From IMG/VR virus record IMGVR_UViG_3300044647_002064, positions 1 to 32,332 of that record: a stretch of DNA of 32,332 nt. One strand, 5' to 3'. The DNA comes from a virus. Below the pieces are notes generated by a model, which was not told the DNA's origin, did no database searches, and saw only the letters and a program-made list of their open reading frames with translations. How positions within the stretch are numbered: position 1 is the stretch's first letter; every line of letters starts with the position of its first letter. The translations under genes were made by a program, and so were the position numbers. Below are positions 8,744 through 30,471 of the stretch, in pieces.

Positions 8744-8775
8744 CAAATATAGACAATCTTATTCATATTTCCAAA
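8744..8775 (-). promoter_or_regulatory. Bacteroidetes-type promoter for gene starting 8726
   Basis: TTTG (8775-8772), 20 nt, then TATATTTG (8751-8744) on the minus strand, a full match to the Bacteroidetes consensus. Unlike most promoters here it leaves a 17-nt gap to the ATG. The TTTG box lies within the 3' end of the HNH gene. Confidence 0.8.
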
Positions 8776-9481
8776 TAAATCCACCGGCTTTTTTTGTTCT
8801 ATTTGATAAGTTGGATTTAATATCACCTTTAATATTATTATCTTTCATCCAATTATAAGCATCAGTCATACAATCATATTTTTTTAAAAAATTACCATCT
8901 AAATCAAATTGTAGAACACATTTACCATTTCTTTTTTTTGCTTCTGCCCGTTTTTTAACTAATTCGTCACTTTGTTTTACACCCTTTAAAGGGCTTACAT
9001 AATCTTTTGGTAAATTTTTTGGGGTTCCTTTTCTTAATCTATTTCTTTCAGATAAATCAGGTCTTGGTACGCCAATTTTTGATAATGCGGTTTTCGGATT
9101 TGGTTTTCCTTTATTGTGACTGGGTCGACCTTTATATGTTTTTGAAATTAACTTTGCAAACTCATCACGAATCCTTTCATATTGTTTTGAATTTATTTTA
9201 TACCTTTTACCATTCCGATCTTGATTACACATTCCCCATAAAGCAAATTTTAATTTTTTTTCGTTAGGGTATATCTCACATAATAATAAATGTGCGATAA
9301 AATGTTCTTTTGCTGTTAATAAGATAATGTTTGGGTGTGTTTTCCATTCTCCGGTTTTTCCTTCACCACCCAAACATTTAGGTATTATATGATGAGATTC
9401 GTAATAAAAATTAGGACTTTTAATTCTTTCTTCACTCTTCGCTCTCTCTATTATCTGATTGTAAATTTTTTTGTAGTCCAT
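8759..9481 (-). CDS. HNH homing endonuclease (240 aa)
   Basis: The HNH core is at residues 30-64: SHHIIPKCLGG with paired His (30-31), NIILLTAKEH (Asn 51, His 60) and a final His near 64. The middle is basic with NUMOD3-like repeats (THNKGKPN-type). The C-terminus (VLQFDLDGNFLKKY...AGGFIWKYE) is a NUMOD1/IENR1-type DNA-binding module. It is a free-standing mobile endonuclease, not inside an intron that I can see. It is related to the HNH gene at 20930-21568 in the core, but the C-terminal module differs. It is preceded by an overlapping 56-residue basic ORF. Confidence 0.9.
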   Translation of the reverse strand: MDYKKIYNQIIERAKSEERIKSPNFYYESHHIIPKCLGGEGKTGEWKTHPNIILLTAKEHFIAHLLLCEIYPNEKKLKFALWGMCNQDRNGKRYKINSKQYERIRDEFAKLISKTYKGRPSHNKGKPNPKTALSKIGVPRPDLSERNRLRKGTPKNLPKDYVSPLKGVKQSDELVKKRAEAKKRNGKCVLQFDLDGNFLKKYDCMTDAYNWMKDNNIKGDIKSNLSNRTKKAGGFIWKYE

Positions 9482-12396: not shown

Positions 12397-13635
12397 TTAT
12401 TTTTTGTATTTGTAGGAAGTATCTATTGGTCTTTTACCATATCTTTTTTCCATAAGTTTCTGGTGTAAGTCCCAATCTAATATAGATTCATTTGTTTGTT
12501 CTTTTTCATCAGGAAGGAGAGAATATATTTTTGATATTTTTTTCATTAAATTTGTTGAGACATAATTAAATCTTTCACACTCGTCTTTAAAAAAGTCCAT
12601 TTCTCTATCTTTATATTTTGAAACGTGATTAATAAACTTTCTTCTAACCTTTTCTTTTTCTTCTCTTGGTGGATTAATTTGGCCACCAAATAAGTTTACC
12701 CCCATAAACCCACTAAACATTTGTGCCATTTTTTCAGAATGTGTATAAAAGAAATTATCAAATGTATCCACTTTAGCATTAACTAAGTTAATATAAATAA
12801 GTTCCAAAACTGATTTAATTTTTTCTTCATCATTCATAGTATCAGGATCTCCACCCGCATGACTAATTAATCCATCAATACTATCCATTTGTTCGTATAA
12901 CTGCTCCATTAAATAATCATATGAAAATTCACGTATTTTTTTAAGTTCAGTAAAAACCTCATCATTTACAATAAAATCATAAAAATCTTGTTTTTTAATT
13001 CCTTTTTGGATCATTCTTGAGGCAACCTCAGTTGGTCTTACAATGTTTTCTGATTGTTGTATAAAATAACTATACCTCATAAATTCATTAATCACAGGTA
13101 TTCCAAATCTTAAAGTTCCTGAAGAATAAACGTTATAATCAGCAGTTCCACCAATAAGTTCGTGTTCTTGTTTTTGTCTATGAAATCTATGCATTATTTC
13201 GTGTGACATTACAGATACTGTTTGTTCTTTATCTTTGGTAAATTCTTCATATAACTCTTCAGGTTCCCAACCTTCGGGAGATATAAAGTTTATATGTAAT
13301 TCTATTGTTTGACTTTTAGCGTTAACTTGCAACATTACACCTTCGTCAAAATTAAATTCATTACCAACACCCATAGATGCAATCACCGGATATTCATATG
13401 GGAAATCTTCAACTTCTTCAACAGAAACCGCAACATTTATTTCAGTGAACGTTACATCAGATATTACTAAGTCACTATAAATTTTAAAACTATAATTTTC
13501 TTCGGTGGTATCTATTGTTTTTAATTCATCAGATACTAAATTGTATAATTCTTCACCCGCTTGTAATATTCCTTCAGGAACACCAACAGCTTCCTGTAAT
13601 ATTTTAAATTGATTTTCTGTTAAAATGATTTTCAT
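12397..13635 (-). CDS. Putative tagged zinc metalloprotease (412 aa)
   Basis: The zinc site HEIMH (145-149) fits HExxH and sits in SVMSHEIMHRFHR. A plausible third ligand is Glu 203 in RPTEVASR, 54 residues on. The first ten residues, MKIILTENQF, are the tag shared with proteins at 18217 and 18644 and include the (L/I)-x-E site L-T-E. The C-terminal part is long, helical and charged, ending TNESILDWDLHQKLMEKRYG. The likely role is peptidase activity on a host or virion target; injection with the DNA is a hypothesis based on the tag. TATTTATT lies 3 nt before the start. No signal peptide. Confidence 0.75.
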   Translation of the reverse strand: MKIILTENQFKILQEAVGVPEGILQAGEELYNLVSDELKTIDTTEENYSFKIYSDLVISDVTFTEINVAVSVEEVEDFPYEYPVIASMGVGNEFNFDEGVMLQVNAKSQTIELHINFISPEGWEPEELYEEFTKDKEQTVSVMSHEIMHRFHRQKQEHELIGGTADYNVYSSGTLRFGIPVINEFMRYSYFIQQSENIVRPTEVASRMIQKGIKKQDFYDFIVNDEVFTELKKIREFSYDYLMEQLYEQMDSIDGLISHAGGDPDTMNDEEKIKSVLELIYINLVNAKVDTFDNFFYTHSEKMAQMFSGFMGVNLFGGQINPPREEKEKVRRKFINHVSKYKDREMDFFKDECERFNYVSTNLMKKISKIYSLLPDEKEQTNESILDWDLHQKLMEKRYGKRPIDTSYKYKK

Positions 13636-15348: not shown

Positions 15349-16755
15349 TTATGATTTAACACCATTTTGAATAATATCTTTAACTTCATCTTGATGATAC
15401 CATTCACTTCCTGACATTATAACTTTAACACCATTTTCAATAGCATAATTAATATCTTCAGTAATTATAGCGTTAGTAACCATATGATCTTTTTGTTGAT
15501 AACTTTCAGCCATCTTATGTTTAACTTCTTTAACACCATTTTGTATAACATCATCAACTTTACGATTTATACGGAGATGTCTAGCACCTGTGTCTTTTAC
15601 TCCATTTTGAATAACATCGTCAACTTTACGATAATTCCACCCTAAAATATCTTTAACCCCATTTTCTATAACATCTTCATCAATGATATTATCATCCATG
15701 TCAAAGTGTCCAATATCTTTCACCCCATTTTTAATTGTCTTATCAACATTCGGTGGTTGCTGACCACCAAATTCAATCGCATTTTTAATTTCCCTACTTC
15801 TTGGGAAAACCCAAGCTGAGATTTCTTTTACCCCATTTTGAATAGTTTCGTCAACCGCACCCAATGGATACCACATTCGTGTTTGGGTGTCCTTTACCCC
15901 ATTTTGAATTGTGTCTTCAACATTTATATCTCCCTCAAAATAATACGGATAACTTTCTTTCACTCCATTTTTAAGGGTATCTTCAAAATCAGGATTTAAG
16001 GATTCAAGTACGTCCTTGACATATTTTACCCCATTTTGAAGGGTGTCTTCAACGATATCCTCCAACGGACTTGAATCACCGTCAATTTCCTTTACCCCAT
16101 TTTGAATGGCATTTTCAACATTGGTTGTCATAGAAAATGGATTATCTATAATTTCTTTCACTCCATTTTGAATGGCGTCTTCAACAAACATCCTTCCTTT
16201 TATAAAATCAAAGAAGGTGTGCTTTACCCCATTTTGAATTGTGTTTTCAACACCCATGTCATTCATAAAATCATCGGGTTCAGTATTTTTCACTCCATTT
16301 TGAATGGTGTCTTCAACTAAGTGTTGTACCAACTCATTTTGATATGAGGTGTCCTTTACCCCATTTTGAATGGTATCTTCAACTCGCCTGTAGTAAATCA
16401 TATTTTTTTGTTTGGCGTCCTTCACCCCATTTTGAACTACGTTTTCAACTATTGAATACGGTACATTAGATGTGTCAGTAACATGTTCAATGTCTTTTTC
16501 TAAAAATCTTGATTCAAACCATTCTTTAATTATATCTTTTGACTCAACACAATCAATGCTAAGTAATTTTAATTCAGAATGAAATAGATTATAATTAAAC
16601 CAAAGAGTTTTTGTGTTTGTAAATTCAATAACCCATCTTTTTTCTTCTGTGAATATTAACCACATTGATGATTTTGTTACATACTTATCGGCACCTTCAA
16701 TCATGTCATCAAACATGCCATATATCAATTTTCTTATTTTAGGTGTTATTTCCAT
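15349..16755 (-). CDS. 22-residue repeat protein (468 aa)
   Basis: Residues 1-95 form an N-terminal domain (RKLIYGMFDD, WLIFTEEKRWVIEF, LWFNYNLF, IIKEWFESRF). From residue 103 to the end run about 17 units of a conserved 12-residue block, V-E-D-T-I-Q-N-G-V-K-D-T or close variants, each followed by about 10 highly variable residues. Ten consecutive units keep an exact 66-nt spacing. The unit near 336-350 (IKNAIEFGG) is degenerate. Codon third positions vary within the conserved block, so selection acts on protein. To my recollection other tailed phages carry similar LW-x-N-Y proteins with repeat arrays; function unknown. A promoter lies at 16760-16791. Confidence 0.85.
   Translation of the reverse strand: MEITPKIRKLIYGMFDDMIEGADKYVTKSSMWLIFTEEKRWVIEFTNTKTLWFNYNLFHSELKLLSIDCVESKDIIKEWFESRFLEKDIEHVTDTSNVPYSIVENVVQNGVKDAKQKNMIYYRRVEDTIQNGVKDTSYQNELVQHLVEDTIQNGVKNTEPDDFMNDMGVENTIQNGVKHTFFDFIKGRMFVEDAIQNGVKEIIDNPFSMTTNVENAIQNGVKEIDGDSSPLEDIVEDTLQNGVKYVKDVLESLNPDFEDTLKNGVKESYPYYFEGDINVEDTIQNGVKDTQTRMWYPLGAVDETIQNGVKEISAWVFPRSREIKNAIEFGGQQPPNVDKTIKNGVKDIGHFDMDDNIIDEDVIENGVKDILGWNYRKVDDVIQNGVKDTGARHLRINRKVDDVIQNGVKEVKHKMAESYQQKDHMVTNAIITEDINYAIENGVKVIMSGSEWYHQDEVKDIIQNGVKS
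15352..16449 (-). repeat. Tandem 66-bp in-frame repeat array
   Basis: About 17 copies of a ~30-nt core (plus strand, like TTTACCCCATTTTGAATGG followed by TGTCTTCAAC) separated by ~36 nt of unrelated sequence. Core positions step by exactly 66 nt from about 15833 to 16427, then 57-105 nt towards the C-terminus. It mimics a CRISPR array but is coding. Confidence 0.95.
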
Positions 16756-18197: not shown

Positions 18198-18220
18198 AAA
18201 ACTTAATTAGAAAAATATGA
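18194..18220 (+). other. Tag-B remnant mini-ORF (MKNLIRKI, stop)
   Basis: An ATG overlapping the stop of the previous gene opens MKNLIRKI and then stops at the TGA that overlaps the next gene's ATG. Its DNA (TTAATTAGAAAAATAT) matches the tag-B coding sequence at 16817 and 17268, then switches to a tag-A gene. It looks like the scar of a body/tag swap and could also couple translation to the next gene. Confidence 0.6.
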
Positions 18221-18639
18221 AAATAATATTAACAGAAGAACAATACGATAAATTAATATCTTCTCTAACGGGAGAACCTAAAAGCAATCCGTCTTTATTT
18301 TCTAAATTTAAAAATTGGGTATCGGGTAATAGTGACAACGAGATTGGTAAAATGTTATTGAAGTCAATTGAGTCTGGAAATTATGAATTTGATGGGATTG
18401 ATATTTTATATACTTTATATACTATAAAATTTTCAATAAATAATTTCCCGTTTAAAATAACAAAAGATAATGGTAGCACAAAAGATAATATATTTTCTTT
18501 ATATATGCCATATGTTAAGGAAGAATTAAAAATAAATAAAAACTTATTGAAACATATTTTTGATTTAATGGCTAAAAAACATATGGACCTTAATGATTAT
18601 TTTAACATGTATTTAAATGATATGATTAATTCACTATGA
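18217..18639 (+). CDS. Tag-A cassette protein 4 (140 aa)
   Basis: Starts MKIILTEEQYDKLISSL. The first 29 nt of coding sequence are identical to those of the next gene. L-T-E fits an (L/I)-x-E protease site. The body is Lys/Asn/Ile-rich with FSKFKNWVSGNSDNEIG, ITKDNGSTKDNIFSLYMPYV and a helical end (HIFDLMAKKHMDLNDYFNMY). No domain recognised. Within the plus-strand cassette, 4 nt before the ADP-ribosyltransferase candidate. Function unknown. Confidence 0.75.
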   Translation: MKIILTEEQYDKLISSLTGEPKSNPSLFSKFKNWVSGNSDNEIGKMLLKSIESGNYEFDGIDILYTLYTIKFSINNFPFKITKDNGSTKDNIFSLYMPYVKEELKINKNLLKHIFDLMAKKHMDLNDYFNMYLNDMINSL

Positions 18640-18643
18640 AAAT

Positions 18644-20221
18644 ATGAAAATAATATTAACAGAAGAACAATATAAAAGTTTAATAAATGAGAATTTATTT
18701 AAGGACACCTTAAAAGACCTTAAAATAAATACCGGAATTTTATTCACATTTGGTACAGGAATGGCCGCATTTTTAGGTCCTGTTGAAAGATTACTTACAG
18801 GATCGGGGTTTTCATTTAATTCTACAGAAATATCACTTTTAATAATTTCAGCAATTGCCAATTTAATCAATGACACAAATAAAGATAAGTTATTAGAAAA
18901 GTTAAAAGAATTAAATTTAACTGACGCTCTTGGTGGTGTTGAAAATTTAATTAAAAAATCAACGGATATAATAAGAGAAGTTGTTAAAGGTGTTTTAGGT
19001 GTTTCATATTCATTAACTGAAATACTTGGGTTTGCATTTTTATTAAACCCTGTTATGAAGATCATTGGTTCAATAATAAATGATAGAAATATCACCACTG
19101 ATAATTTACAAGTATTAGTAAGTGGTGTTGTATTAGGAGGTATTGTATTTTTTATTAGAAACCTATTAAAAAAATCAAAAGATAATTTAGGTGAAAGTTT
19201 TGTAACATTAAAAGAAGATATTGAACCATCATCAAAGGCAGTTAAAAACATTTGTGATTCAAAAAAGTTCTGTAAAGCACAAGGAAAAATAACATTCGGC
19301 CAATTAAGAGAATTGGTTGAAAATGCAAAAACAAATAGATTATTTTTACACATTGGTGAAGGCGGATATAAGGCAACTCTTAGATTACTACCTTGGTTTT
19401 TTCCTCAGTTAGCAATTGCTGGTTTTACAGGTTCTTTATTAAGAGCGTTCAACAAAGTTTTTAGACCAACATTAGAAGAAACAACAGGATATAAAACATG
19501 GTGGGGTAAAACCATTATGAAGATATTCAATCTTGTTGAGGGTGAGTTAGGCACAACTGATCCTTTATCTAAAATATTTTTTATATCTGATGGTTTAATG
19601 ACCATGTTAGATGACAAACTAAAAGTTAAATTTGCAAGATACATTGCAGATATTGCATCAGAAAAACCTGATGATGAAGAAGTTCCTGAGTTTTTTGTTG
19701 AAAATGAATTAAGATATTGGTTAAATGAGAAGTTCTTATTGGATCCACCTCTATCACCAAAAAACCCAACAATAGAAGATAAAGAAACTTTAGATGAAAG
19801 TTATATTAGATTAAGTGAGGACAATACTGATAACTTACTTGGTTACTTATATGAGATGGGTTTTGATAATGATGACGCATTATATCAACTAAACGACATC
19901 ACAGATTTTTATGATAATTTACCTGAGACGCTAACACTTTATAGAATGGTATTTGCCGGTAGTAAAGATGAAATAGATACACAATATCCAGGTTCACATT
20001 ACGCAACAAACAAAAATGATTTATTAGATAGTCACTACACTTCTTTAAGAGATTCAAGTTATGGTGATAATTGTTATGTGATAAAAGTTAAAGCACAAAA
20101 ACAACTAATAGATAGTTACGAATCAATAAAGAATAACATTCTTTATCCAAACGAACAAGAGATCACATTAAAGAATAAAGGGTTTGGTGTTGATGTAATA
20201 GAAATAATGCAGGTCAATTAA
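18644..20221 (+). CDS. Tag-A membrane protein with C-terminal ADP-ribosyltransferase-like domain (525 aa)
   Basis: Tag MKIILTEEQYKSLI. Hydrophobic helices lie at about 31-50, 62-77, 125-147, 155-173 and possibly 252-268. A central helical region carries a Cys pair (NICDSKKFCKAQ). The last ~100 residues fit an R-S-E ADP-ribosyltransferase: TLYRMVFAG (Arg 434), YPGSHYATNK (Ser 451), and YPNEQEITL with Glu 504 and Glu 506 as an E-x-E pair, then KGFGVDVIEI. T4 Alt is a precedent: an injected ART cut after I-T-E near its N-terminus by the prohead protease. The role, NAD-dependent modification of a host target after injection, is inference. Convergent with the MPPED gene. Confidence 0.65.
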   Translation: MKIILTEEQYKSLINENLFKDTLKDLKINTGILFTFGTGMAAFLGPVERLLTGSGFSFNSTEISLLIISAIANLINDTNKDKLLEKLKELNLTDALGGVENLIKKSTDIIREVVKGVLGVSYSLTEILGFAFLLNPVMKIIGSIINDRNITTDNLQVLVSGVVLGGIVFFIRNLLKKSKDNLGESFVTLKEDIEPSSKAVKNICDSKKFCKAQGKITFGQLRELVENAKTNRLFLHIGEGGYKATLRLLPWFFPQLAIAGFTGSLLRAFNKVFRPTLEETTGYKTWWGKTIMKIFNLVEGELGTTDPLSKIFFISDGLMTMLDDKLKVKFARYIADIASEKPDDEEVPEFFVENELRYWLNEKFLLDPPLSPKNPTIEDKETLDESYIRLSEDNTDNLLGYLYEMGFDNDDALYQLNDITDFYDNLPETLTLYRMVFAGSKDEIDTQYPGSHYATNKNDLLDSHYTSLRDSSYGDNCYVIKVKAQKQLIDSYESIKNNILYPNEQEITLKNKGFGVDVIEIMQVN

Positions 20222-20929: not shown

Positions 20930-21568
20930 TTATTTTTTATATTTACAGTTATCACCATGCCATTTACTGAAATTACCTTTTCCTGAAAGGACATCACAGT
21001 GTGGGCATTTTATTTTCATTTTACTTGGGTTATTTGTTTCGCTAAAAAGTGCCGGATGTTTATCTACAACTTCTTTTTTTTTCATAGGGTTTTTATCCCC
21101 ATTTATTCTTCCTTTACTTGCTAACCCAATATTTCTTTTATGTTCTTCAGTAAATTTTTTTCCACTATTTACCCCAACTTTACCTAATTTTGATTTACGT
21201 ATCTTTTCTTTATGCTCTTGCGTAAATGGTTTTCTTTTAACTCCCGTCAATACTTCGCTATGTGCCTGTGCCGCCTCCATTTTAATTCTTTCAAAAATCT
21301 TTCCAGATTTTATAATTTTTCTTTCTTGATCACTACTTTTTATTGACATCATTCTAACCGCCAATTTTAATTTTGGATTATTTTGGTAAATCTCTACAAG
21401 TAATAGGTGTATTAACCAATGTTCTTTTGCCGTTAATTTAACTAAATTTTCTTTTTTATTATTTCCACCTAAACATTTTGGGATTATGTGGTGATTCTCT
21501 CCGTAACCAATTAAAACTCTATTCTTTGCTCTGGAAATAATACTGTCGTGTATTTTTTTGTAATTCAT
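20930..21568 (-). CDS. HNH homing endonuclease (212 aa)
   Basis: Starting at MNYKKIHDSIISRAKN, the HNH core is NHHIIPKCLGG (His 26-27), ENLVKLTAKEH (Asn 41, His 50) and a His near 54. NUMOD3-type repeats follow (FTQEHKEKIRKSKLGK; FTEEHKRNIGLASKGR). The C-terminal CPHCDVLSGKGNFSKWHGD-N-C is the zinc finger typical of T4-like HNH endonucleases. The core resembles the nuclease at 8759-9481. An in-frame ATG 23 codons upstream is possible but gives an unconserved hydrophobic leader. It is a free-standing mobile element between a phosphoesterase gene and a coil protein gene. Confidence 0.9.
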   Translation of the reverse strand: MNYKKIHDSIISRAKNRVLIGYGENHHIIPKCLGGNNKKENLVKLTAKEHWLIHLLLVEIYQNNPKLKLAVRMMSIKSSDQERKIIKSGKIFERIKMEAAQAHSEVLTGVKRKPFTQEHKEKIRKSKLGKVGVNSGKKFTEEHKRNIGLASKGRINGDKNPMKKKEVVDKHPALFSETNNPSKMKIKCPHCDVLSGKGNFSKWHGDNCKYKK

Positions 21569-21582
21569 AATGATATCTTTAT

Positions 21583-21590
21583 TATAAATA
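21583..21590 (-). promoter_or_regulatory. TATTTATA motif upstream of HNH gene
   Basis: TATTTATA on the minus strand, 14 nt before the ATG at 21568. It lies in the 5' arm region of a possible TGATAT/ATATCA hairpin. It resembles the TATTTATA before the GIY-YIG gene; weak alone. Confidence 0.3.
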
Positions 21591-21626
21591 TCACGAGCAT
21601 GTAAAAACAAAAAAAATTTAGTAATA

Positions 21627-24771: not shown

Positions 24772-25524
24772 TTACTCTTTATATTTGTAATTTTCAAACT
24801 TTGGTGATTTTAATCTATTTTTTATAGTTGATGTCGGTATACCAATTTGTCTCGCACCTTCACTTAAACTTTCATACTCAATATCATCAACAATAACTTT
24901 TATCATATTACCTGGTTTATTTCCCTTTAACGTTTCTGATATTTTTCGTTTATGCTCTTCACTTTTAGGTTTTGAATTTACTTCTTTTATTTTTTGAATC
25001 ACTTCTGGTGTATGTGTTTTCCCTTTGAATGGGTTGTTTTCTTTCATCCATTTTGAGTGTTCCGGGTTTGGTATGCCTTTTTTTCCGTTTGGTCTACCTT
25101 TTATTGGGCTAACTTTACCTTTTCGTGGGTTAACCCAATCGGGATCGTCTCTTTTTTTTATTTTTATAATTTTAGTTCCTTTCTTCTTATTGTGTTTTGG
25201 TGATTTCATTTTTCTACTATGTTCCAATCTTATATCATCCCTTCTTGGATTATTACTTATAGTATCGCCACCATCACCACCTAACGAAATATTATAACCT
25301 TCAGTGATTGCTTTTAATTCTTTAATCCAAAATTTTTCTCTTTCATTAAGTAACTCTAGTGTGTTACAAACTTCTAAAGTTTCTTTTTTGAAGTTCACAA
25401 TTCCATATTTTTTAATTGCCAGTTTTAACCTTTTACCTGAACCATAATAGTTAGGGTTATTATTTGTGTCCTTACCCACATAAAATTTTTGGTTTACTAA
25501 ATTTGTTGTCTTATAAATAATCAT
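24772..25524 (-). CDS. GIY-YIG homing endonuclease (250 aa)
   Basis: The N-terminal GIY-YIG domain reads IIYKTTNLVNQKFYVGK (Tyr/Gly pair), YGSGKRLKLAIKKYG, NEREKFWIKEL (Glu metal ligand) and YNISLGGDGG. NUMOD3-type repeats follow (TPEVIQKIKE; SEEHKRKISETLKG), then a C-terminal helix-turn-helix-like module (YESLSEGARQIGIPTSTIKN). It lies 49 nt downstream of thymidylate synthase, the same pairing as T4 td and I-TevI, but here without an intron. Unlike its neighbours it has a strong Shine-Dalgarno in a hairpin, suggesting a foreign or specially regulated mobile gene. Confidence 0.92.
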   Translation of the reverse strand: MIIYKTTNLVNQKFYVGKDTNNNPNYYGSGKRLKLAIKKYGIVNFKKETLEVCNTLELLNEREKFWIKELKAITEGYNISLGGDGGDTISNNPRRDDIRLEHSRKMKSPKHNKKKGTKIIKIKKRDDPDWVNPRKGKVSPIKGRPNGKKGIPNPEHSKWMKENNPFKGKTHTPEVIQKIKEVNSKPKSEEHKRKISETLKGNKPGNMIKVIVDDIEYESLSEGARQIGIPTSTIKNRLKSPKFENYKYKE

Positions 25525-25547
25525 ATGGTATTACCTCCTTACCATAT
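25523..25547 (-). promoter_or_regulatory. RBS hairpin of the GIY-YIG gene
   Basis: On the minus strand ATATGGTA, loop AGGAGGTAA, TACCATAT: a perfect 8-bp stem whose 9-nt loop holds the Shine-Dalgarno AGGAGG, and whose 3' arm runs into the ATG. It is the only strong Shine-Dalgarno I found in the window. It would hide the start in long transcripts. Confidence 0.75.
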
Positions 25548-25552
25548 AAATA
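25545..25552 (-). promoter_or_regulatory. TATTTATA motif overlapping the hairpin 5' arm
   Basis: TATTTATA on the minus strand ends 3 nt inside the hairpin 5' arm. If it is a late promoter with a start a few bases downstream, late mRNA would lack most of the 5' arm, and the Shine-Dalgarno would be free. Confidence 0.45.
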
Positions 25553-25572
25553 TCTATTAAAACCAAAAAAGT

Positions 25573-26403
25573 TTAAATTGCCAACTCTAATTTTGAATTT
25601 ATTTTAGTTATACCGTCAATACCGGTAATCTCAAAATCATCAATTGTATAGTCGTAGAAGTTTTTATTTTCCTTTAAAATTAACTTTGGTTGTGTGTCTA
25701 ATGGTTCCTTGTTTAAAAGTTCTGAAACACCATCAAAATGTCTATCGTATATATGTAGATTCTGAACCAAATGACAAAACTTACCAACTTTATAACCACA
25801 ATGTCCCGCAACCATCATTAAAAGTGCTGTATATTGAATTTTGTTAATATAACCAGCAACTAAATAATCATTGCTACGTTGAATTAGTGTCATATCAAGA
25901 GTTAATTCTCCGTTATTTTTTCTTACCGAGAATAGTATTTCGTATGCACAAGGAAATAATCCTTCTGTTTCAAATAAATCGTGATACTGAAACATATTGA
26001 TGATATGTCTTCTACCAAACGGATCATCAATTAAACCTACCAATAATCTATCAATTAGATTGTATCTTCCGATTGTTGCACCATATCTTTGTCCAATTGT
26101 ATCGTCACCAATATTCCACTCTTCCCACCAGTTAATACCCATTTCACGAGCAACTCTCAATGATGAAGTTTGTTTTTGATATATCCATAAAATTTCTTTA
26201 ATACCGGTTTTAATTGCGGTATTTCTTAATGTTGGAATCGGAAACTCTTCTTTTGATATGTCATACTCTTCAAAAACTCCTGTAATAAATTTTGAATTTG
26301 CTGGTGTTCCATCCTCGTATTTTGGTCTTGGATTTTCATCCCAAGAACCTTCTTCCATAATTTTTTGGATGTTTTGAATGTAATATTTATCCGCTTTATT
26401 CAT
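25573..26403 (-). CDS. thyA: Thymidylate synthase
   Basis: Converts dUMP to dTMP with methylene-tetrahydrofolate, supporting phage DNA synthesis. The catalytic Cys is in LFPCAYE (Cys 152), the phosphate-binding RR is in GRRHIINMF (131-132), LIQRSNDYL (175-179) is the QRS block, and YINKIQYTALL keeps the Asn (187) that favours dUMP over dCMP, so it is not a dCMP hydroxymethylase. HIYDRHFD is near the C-terminus. At 276 residues it has typical length. It overlaps the upstream tail-coupled gene by 8 nt. The gene is uninterrupted, with the GIY-YIG nuclease immediately downstream. Confidence 0.92.
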   Translation of the reverse strand: MNKADKYYIQNIQKIMEEGSWDENPRPKYEDGTPANSKFITGVFEEYDISKEEFPIPTLRNTAIKTGIKEILWIYQKQTSSLRVAREMGINWWEEWNIGDDTIGQRYGATIGRYNLIDRLLVGLIDDPFGRRHIINMFQYHDLFETEGLFPCAYEILFSVRKNNGELTLDMTLIQRSNDYLVAGYINKIQYTALLMMVAGHCGYKVGKFCHLVQNLHIYDRHFDGVSELLNKEPLDTQPKLILKENKNFYDYTIDDFEITGIDGITKINSKLELAI

Positions 26404-30439: not shown

Positions 30440-30471
30440 CAAAGATACAAAACTTTTTTTAAAAAAACAAA
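30440..30471 (-). promoter_or_regulatory. Bacteroidetes-type promoter for gene starting 30435
   Basis: TTTG (30471-30468), 20 nt, TATCTTTG (30447-30440), 4 nt, ATG on the minus strand. The TTTG is the foot of the terminator at 30470-30494, exactly as at 4793-4824. Confidence 0.85.

Follow-up and report, generated by a model that had tools for sequence, protein, structure and literature searches.

Is the start of the GIY-YIG nuclease gene on this viral DNA controlled by a hairpin and a late promoter, as that of I-TevI is in phage T4? The window (the whole stretch of 32,332 nt analysed here) carries on its minus strand a free-standing GIY-YIG homing endonuclease gene of 250 aa (24772–25524) with an I-TevI-like DNA-binding end. 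In Pfam the product matched I-TevI_DNA-bd (PF20987, 3.8e-7) and NUMOD3 (1.3e-5), both above the cut-off, and the GIY-YIG domain itself (PF01541) only at 0.0086, below it; PHROG 314, homing endonuclease, was matched at 2.5e-43. Located 48 nt upstream on the same strand is an intact, intronless thymidylate synthase gene, thyA (25573–26403, 276 aa; Pfam Thymidylat_synt, 7e-61). No group I intron was found around the nuclease gene, thyA being intact over its 276 aa and the window having no Rfam match, so the gene is not a member of the intron-encoded I-TevI kind and is better described as a free-standing relative. Cleavage of the thymidylate synthase gene by the nuclease is putative, what is known here being the adjacency to two types of thyA. 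The window holds three homing endonuclease genes within 17 kb, the GIY-YIG gene and two of the HNH type (8759–9481 and 20930–21568), and also, at 15349–16755 on the minus strand, a gene for a protein built from about 17 diverged copies of a repeat of the type VEDTIQNGVKDT.

Read on the minus strand, the sequence before the nuclease gene is GATATTTATATGGTAAGGAGGTAATACCATATG. It contains the candidate late-promoter element GATATTTATA (25545–25554) and, in sense orientation, TATTTATA (25552–25545), which overlaps the 5' arm (ATATGGTA, 25547–25540) of a perfect 8-bp stem. The 9-nt loop (AGGAGGTAA, 25539–25531) holds the Shine-Dalgarno (SD) sequence AGGAGG at 25539–25534, and the final two bases of the 3' arm (TACCATAT, 25530–25523) are the A and T of the ATG start codon (25524–25522). 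The hairpin (25523–25547), with the SD in its loop, its 3' arm ending at the ATG and its 5' arm overlapped by TATTTATA, is exactly as the first-pass annotation had described it. In the fold the inner stem grows to 10 bp by addition of U25548-G25522 and U25549-A25521, which takes in the whole AUG, and beyond one U-U mismatch an outer stem involves codons 2–4, the region 25513–25522 (last base of the start codon and codons 2–4) pairing with 25557–25548. The structure has a computed energy of −14.6 kcal/mol and a z of −5.7, none of 200 dinucleotide shuffles being equally good; T4 I-TevI treated in the same way gives a z of −5.0. Perfect 8-bp stems are common in this AT-rich DNA (24 on the minus strand of the window), so that a stem of this kind is not rare by itself and the proof of the hairpin rests on conservation. 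Part of the pairing also comes free, since the coding start ATG ATT ATT TAT is partly complementary to the promoter.

The computed effect of the hairpin depends on where the RNA begins. On long transcripts (starting 60–200 nt upstream) the AUG is unpaired with a probability of 0.002 and opening of 25539–25514 costs 13.5–15 kcal/mol, compared with 4.3–4.5 kcal/mol for RNAs starting at 25539–25544 (4.3 at 25540), in which the AUG is predicted to be still engaged in weak long-range pairing. This difference in opening cost is matched or surpassed by 15 of 442 control ORFs. The SD lies outside the stem and is unpaired with a probability of 0.98, and a ribosome could still dock there.

The nature of the promoter was approached through seven contigs of the phage group (464 kb and 579 ORFs, window included), in which motifs were counted over the 60 nt upstream of ORFs. 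The top 8-mer in these regions was ATATTTAT, seen 97 times with 6.3 expected (its reverse complement, 28 times), and [AG]TATTTATA was the most enriched motif upstream of genes across the 464 kb. It precedes the genes for the tail sheath, tail tube, baseplate wedge, endonuclease VII and endolysin. Given this enrichment and the position before structural and lysis genes, [AG]TATTTATA is very probably the late promoter of the group. A reading of TATTTATA as the T4 late sequence itself does not hold: the T4 consensus TATAAATA lies at the same place on the opposite strand, and TATTTATA, being its reverse complement, is a different promoter, specific to this group. The T4 sequence TATAAATA as such was rejected as the promoter: besides its opposite orientation, it shows the lower enrichment before ORFs (37 vs. 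71).

Distances from the motif to the ATG fall into two classes, of 12–15 nt and of about 19–31 nt. In the long-distance class the consensus is [AG]TATTTATAnnTAAA, positions 13–15 being A in about 85%, and we take the late start to lie at motif position 13–14, which at the GIY-YIG gene is 25541–25540, just after the 5' arm (predicted start 25539–25541 on the minus strand, best guess 25540). The short class comprises about half of the late genes of the 223-kb relative G007 (L054–L065) and of its relatives, and would give rise to nearly leaderless messages. G007 has a contractile tail related to those of T4 and cyanophages and a gene for a small sigma factor (PHROG 1740, 1.8e-26; Pfam sigma regions 2 and 4), whose match to the T4 gp55 family is marginal (9e-4). 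As a separate observation, an N-terminal tag resembling MKIIITESQ is common to 27 of the 579 otherwise different proteins, the phage sigma factor among them; it occurs in the window at 18644–20221(+), 18217–18639(+), 12397–13635(−) and 2474–2857(−) and in the G007 contig (L054–L058). The late motif lies upstream of 19 of these 27 genes and of 110 of the 552 others, and the tag could be a virion or capsid targeting signal.

The host-type promoter sequence TATCTTTG is also enriched upstream of ORFs (19 vs. 2.2), and a candidate early promoter of the form TTG...TATCTTTG was found by pattern match at 30440–30470 on the minus strand, upstream of the thyA operon. Since a terminator scan found no terminator-like site on the minus strand between this candidate and 25524, early transcripts reading through into the nuclease gene are plausible. 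The only other copy of GATATTTATA in the window (21583–21592, minus strand) lies upstream of the HNH homing endonuclease gene at 20930–21568, where no significant hairpin was found (z −1.4).

For the conservation of this start region we have used 52 relatives of the nuclease from a protein-guided scan of IMG/VR and more from a profile scan. The 30 nt before the ATG (GATATTTATATGGTAAGGAGGTAATACCAT) are identical at 30/30 positions in 14 related loci (L002–L015), whose coding sequences are down to 78% identity and differ at as many as 32/58 fourfold sites (55%). The 30 nt preceding this block match at only 7–19/30 positions in ten of these loci, and the sequence to the left of GATATTTATA is unrelated in several. 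The conserved block begins at GATATTTATA, the left edge of the cassette, and travels with the gene; the cassette accompanies two clearly different types of thymidylate synthase, at a distance of 46–48 nt from the stop. In LR756504 only 3 nt separate a related thyA from the gene that follows it, and this is likely an empty site for the cassette.

Conservation of this kind is at the level of sequence, and the block might be kept as DNA only, i.e., as a late promoter and a strong translation start on a recently spread mobile gene, the hairpin being a by-product. The partial complementarity between the AT-rich promoter and ATG-ATT-ATT-TAT and the abundance of 8-bp stems in the window would fit such an origin, as would locus L016, where two differences remove inner pairs. 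A recent spread agrees poorly with fourfold sites that are so far diverged, and the GGTA/TACC part is accounted for by neither promoter nor protein. A single base of the loop-closing pair is changed in five loci (L018, L026, L373, L376, and L377), and L017 has three differences, with SD, promoter match and significant folding gone (z −0.6); the close group as a whole offers too little variation in the hairpin for covariation. Among more diverged relatives, L383, 66% identical over the first 87 residues, folds as GTAGATA-U-UUAUAAU-9 nt-AUUAUGA-U-UAUCUAC (z −6.2), and L382 has a five-pair inner stem (z −3.1); both have the AUG paired and keep a 9-nt loop with both arms changed in sequence. The joint shortening of their arms is not expected from sequence conservation alone, and as neither has an SD, the hairpin and not the SD looks like the basic device. 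Together with the behaviour of other late genes (see below), these loci make conservation as DNA only an unlikely explanation.

An I-TevI-like stage switch is in our judgement probably the best explanation for the 30-nt block. From the sequences, their conservation, the late motif before structural genes and the computed structures we infer which transcripts exist, where the late one starts and when translation is off or on. The block would act as a portable stage switch: long transcripts from early host-type promoters would read through thyA, and on this RNA the 5' arm, at the same time the late promoter, would pair with the start-codon region and prevent ribosomes from starting. Later, RNA polymerase directed by the late sigma factor of the phage would start at about 25540, inside the hairpin, giving a late message 5'-AAGGAGGUAAUACCAUAUG in which the stem could not form and which would be translated. 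The gene likely works like the I-TevI switch, and the earlier proposal of a start codon hidden on long transcripts, a late promoter in the 5' arm and a late start near 25540–25544 is well supported by comparison and folding.

The layout of hairpin and late motif is not confined to the GIY-YIG gene, to judge from upstream sequences of the group, yet it is not universal. Of ten distinct regions upstream of endonuclease VII genes, nine carry ATTTCACA...TGTGAAAT directly before the ATG, around a variable loop that holds the late motif, and L338, the tenth, keeps the hairpin without the exact motif; covariation in their alignment was not beyond chance. Upstream of endonuclease VII in L304–L337 there is a terminator-like hairpin whose U-run and the A-rich first codons are complementary, so that pairing between them could lengthen the start-hiding stem. 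Among HNH endonuclease relatives from other contigs, L351 and L352 have hairpins of 11–12 bp that run up to the ATG (z −6.5 and −6.7), while in L340 a hairpin of z −1.8 includes the late motif. Long-leader late genes as a class also tend this way: for closure by the sequence upstream, 11/49 surpass the 95% mark of the control ORFs (p 0.001), which counts against the hairpin as a by-product, and 11/42 fold better than shuffles at the 5% level. A hairpin before the endolysin gene was discarded as a general feature of the group, as it is not conserved and the layout is present in some relatives only. Three GIY-YIG relatives (L385, L390, and L393) show pairing of TATTTATAGT, their late motif, with ACTATAAATA (in L390 with ACTATAAACA); it lies shortly before an AGGAG and does not involve the start region. 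A pattern scan of IMG/VR for late motif, SD and ATG gave at least 120 matches, mostly chance, and among the matches listed there was no other gene with the same hairpin.

Hairpins combined with late promoters have precedents in T4 I-TevI, I-TevII, I-TevIII and segB and in mobE of Aeromonas phage Aeh1 (PMC2988022, PMC3014915). With I-TevI in the td intron the present gene shares a late promoter in or beside the 5' arm, a start region closed on long transcripts and the linkage of a GIY-YIG nuclease to thymidylate synthase. The T4 gene, however, lies in an intron and has its SD (AGAGG) paired in the 3' arm, whereas here the gene is free-standing, the SD is in the loop, the AUG is paired instead and the promoter is TATTTATA instead of TATAAATA; the I-TevI-like layout first proposed holds for a late promoter overlapping the 5' arm and, by computation, for the closed start, and not for pairing of the SD. 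Neither is the free-standing enzyme the novelty that it had been thought to be. Both mobE and segB are free-standing homing endonuclease genes with a hairpin at the ribosome-binding site and a late promoter (PMC2988022, PMC3014915), although mobE is of the HNH family, the hosts are SD-using gammaproteobacteria and the neighbours are others. The adjacency to thymidylate synthase has a parallel as well, since in Yersinia phage fHe-Yen9-01 an intronless thyA is directly followed by a free-standing GIY-YIG gene; there the GIY-YIG start overlaps thyA, and no late motif or strong start hairpin was found. In T4 gene e and gene 49 (endonuclease VII), the latter listed among hairpin-controlled genes (PMC3014915), the late promoter removes the 5' arm, and endonuclease VII and the endolysin of some relatives are alike here, although the sequences are unrelated and the endolysin hairpin is not general in this group. 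Hairpin control of a free-standing enzyme is already known; what differs here is the host group, the late-promoter sequence, the hiding of the AUG rather than of the SD, and the lone SD. We found no paper joining homing endonuclease, hairpin, late promoter and Bacteroidetes, most subscription journals being outside the text search.

I-TevI also represses its own promoter (PMC2988022), and the conserved quasi-palindrome, which travels with the gene, might likewise be an operator bound by the nuclease. The thyA of L008 has a 16/20 match to it, by eye encoding the active-site residues LPPCH. The best 20-mer matches in thyA genes, of 14–16, are at the level of shuffles, in a weak test that also missed the known T4 similarity. 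We regard this explanation as very improbable, and an operator role need not exclude the hairpin.

The SD itself is exceptional. GGAGG or AGGAG at −18 to −4 was found before 6 of the 579 ORFs of the seven related contigs, window included, and all six are copies of the GIY-YIG gene; none of the other ORFs has it, and chance alone gives about three inside genes. The first-pass annotation had called this the only strong SD in the window, which holds for positions before a start, although AGGAGG as such occurs three times in the window. The perfect SD is kept in about 20 loci. It might be explained otherwise, as tandem arginine codons of a tiny frame, ATG GTA AGG AGG TAA (25545–25531), encoding a stalling leader peptide, and ATG NNN AGN AGG TAA is indeed intact in the loci checked (L002, L016, L017, L018, L373, and L376). 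The frame is absent in L382 and L383, and its ATG, which belongs to the stem, would not be carried by the late transcript; this leaves the proposal with hardly any credibility.

Host-type promoters point to Bacteroidota, which the phage probably infects, and so do the closest named relatives of two proteins, from Bacteroides phages for the endolysin and from Chryseobacterium and Bacteroides phages for endonuclease VII; a host search against genome contigs gave distant matches alone (Selenomonadaceae and one Clostridia bin) and was uninformative. In Bacteroidia the proteins bS21, bS18, and bS6 conceal the anti-SD of the ribosome; a response is seen with extended SD sequences only, and it is stronger without bS21 (PMC9976891). 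A switch that hides the AUG is what would be expected in a host that does not normally rely on SD pairing. A simple duplex calculation with an assumed Bacteroidota 16S tail gives −13.1 kcal/mol for the SD of the nuclease gene, near the −13 reported for rpsU. The loop SD might be a second lock, the late message starting efficiently only on ribosomes without bS21 or with an altered or phage-encoded bS21, a suggestion that we consider quite doubtful. No bS21 gene was matched in the window, and one is present in a relative, G004 (L083), with the late motif upstream and no SD; phage bS21 of lake Bacteroidota phages is late-expressed (PMC9723584).

The switch proposed here would extend a regulatory device familiar from T4 to a group of phages that are largely uncultured and whose hosts are probably Bacteroidota, and the group gains a testable late-promoter consensus. 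The same device is suggested for endonuclease VII and some other late genes. If the second lock were true, the type of ribosome as well as the type of transcript would control the mobile gene, and the lone perfect SD offers a ready probe for special ribosomes or for phage bS21 steering translation.
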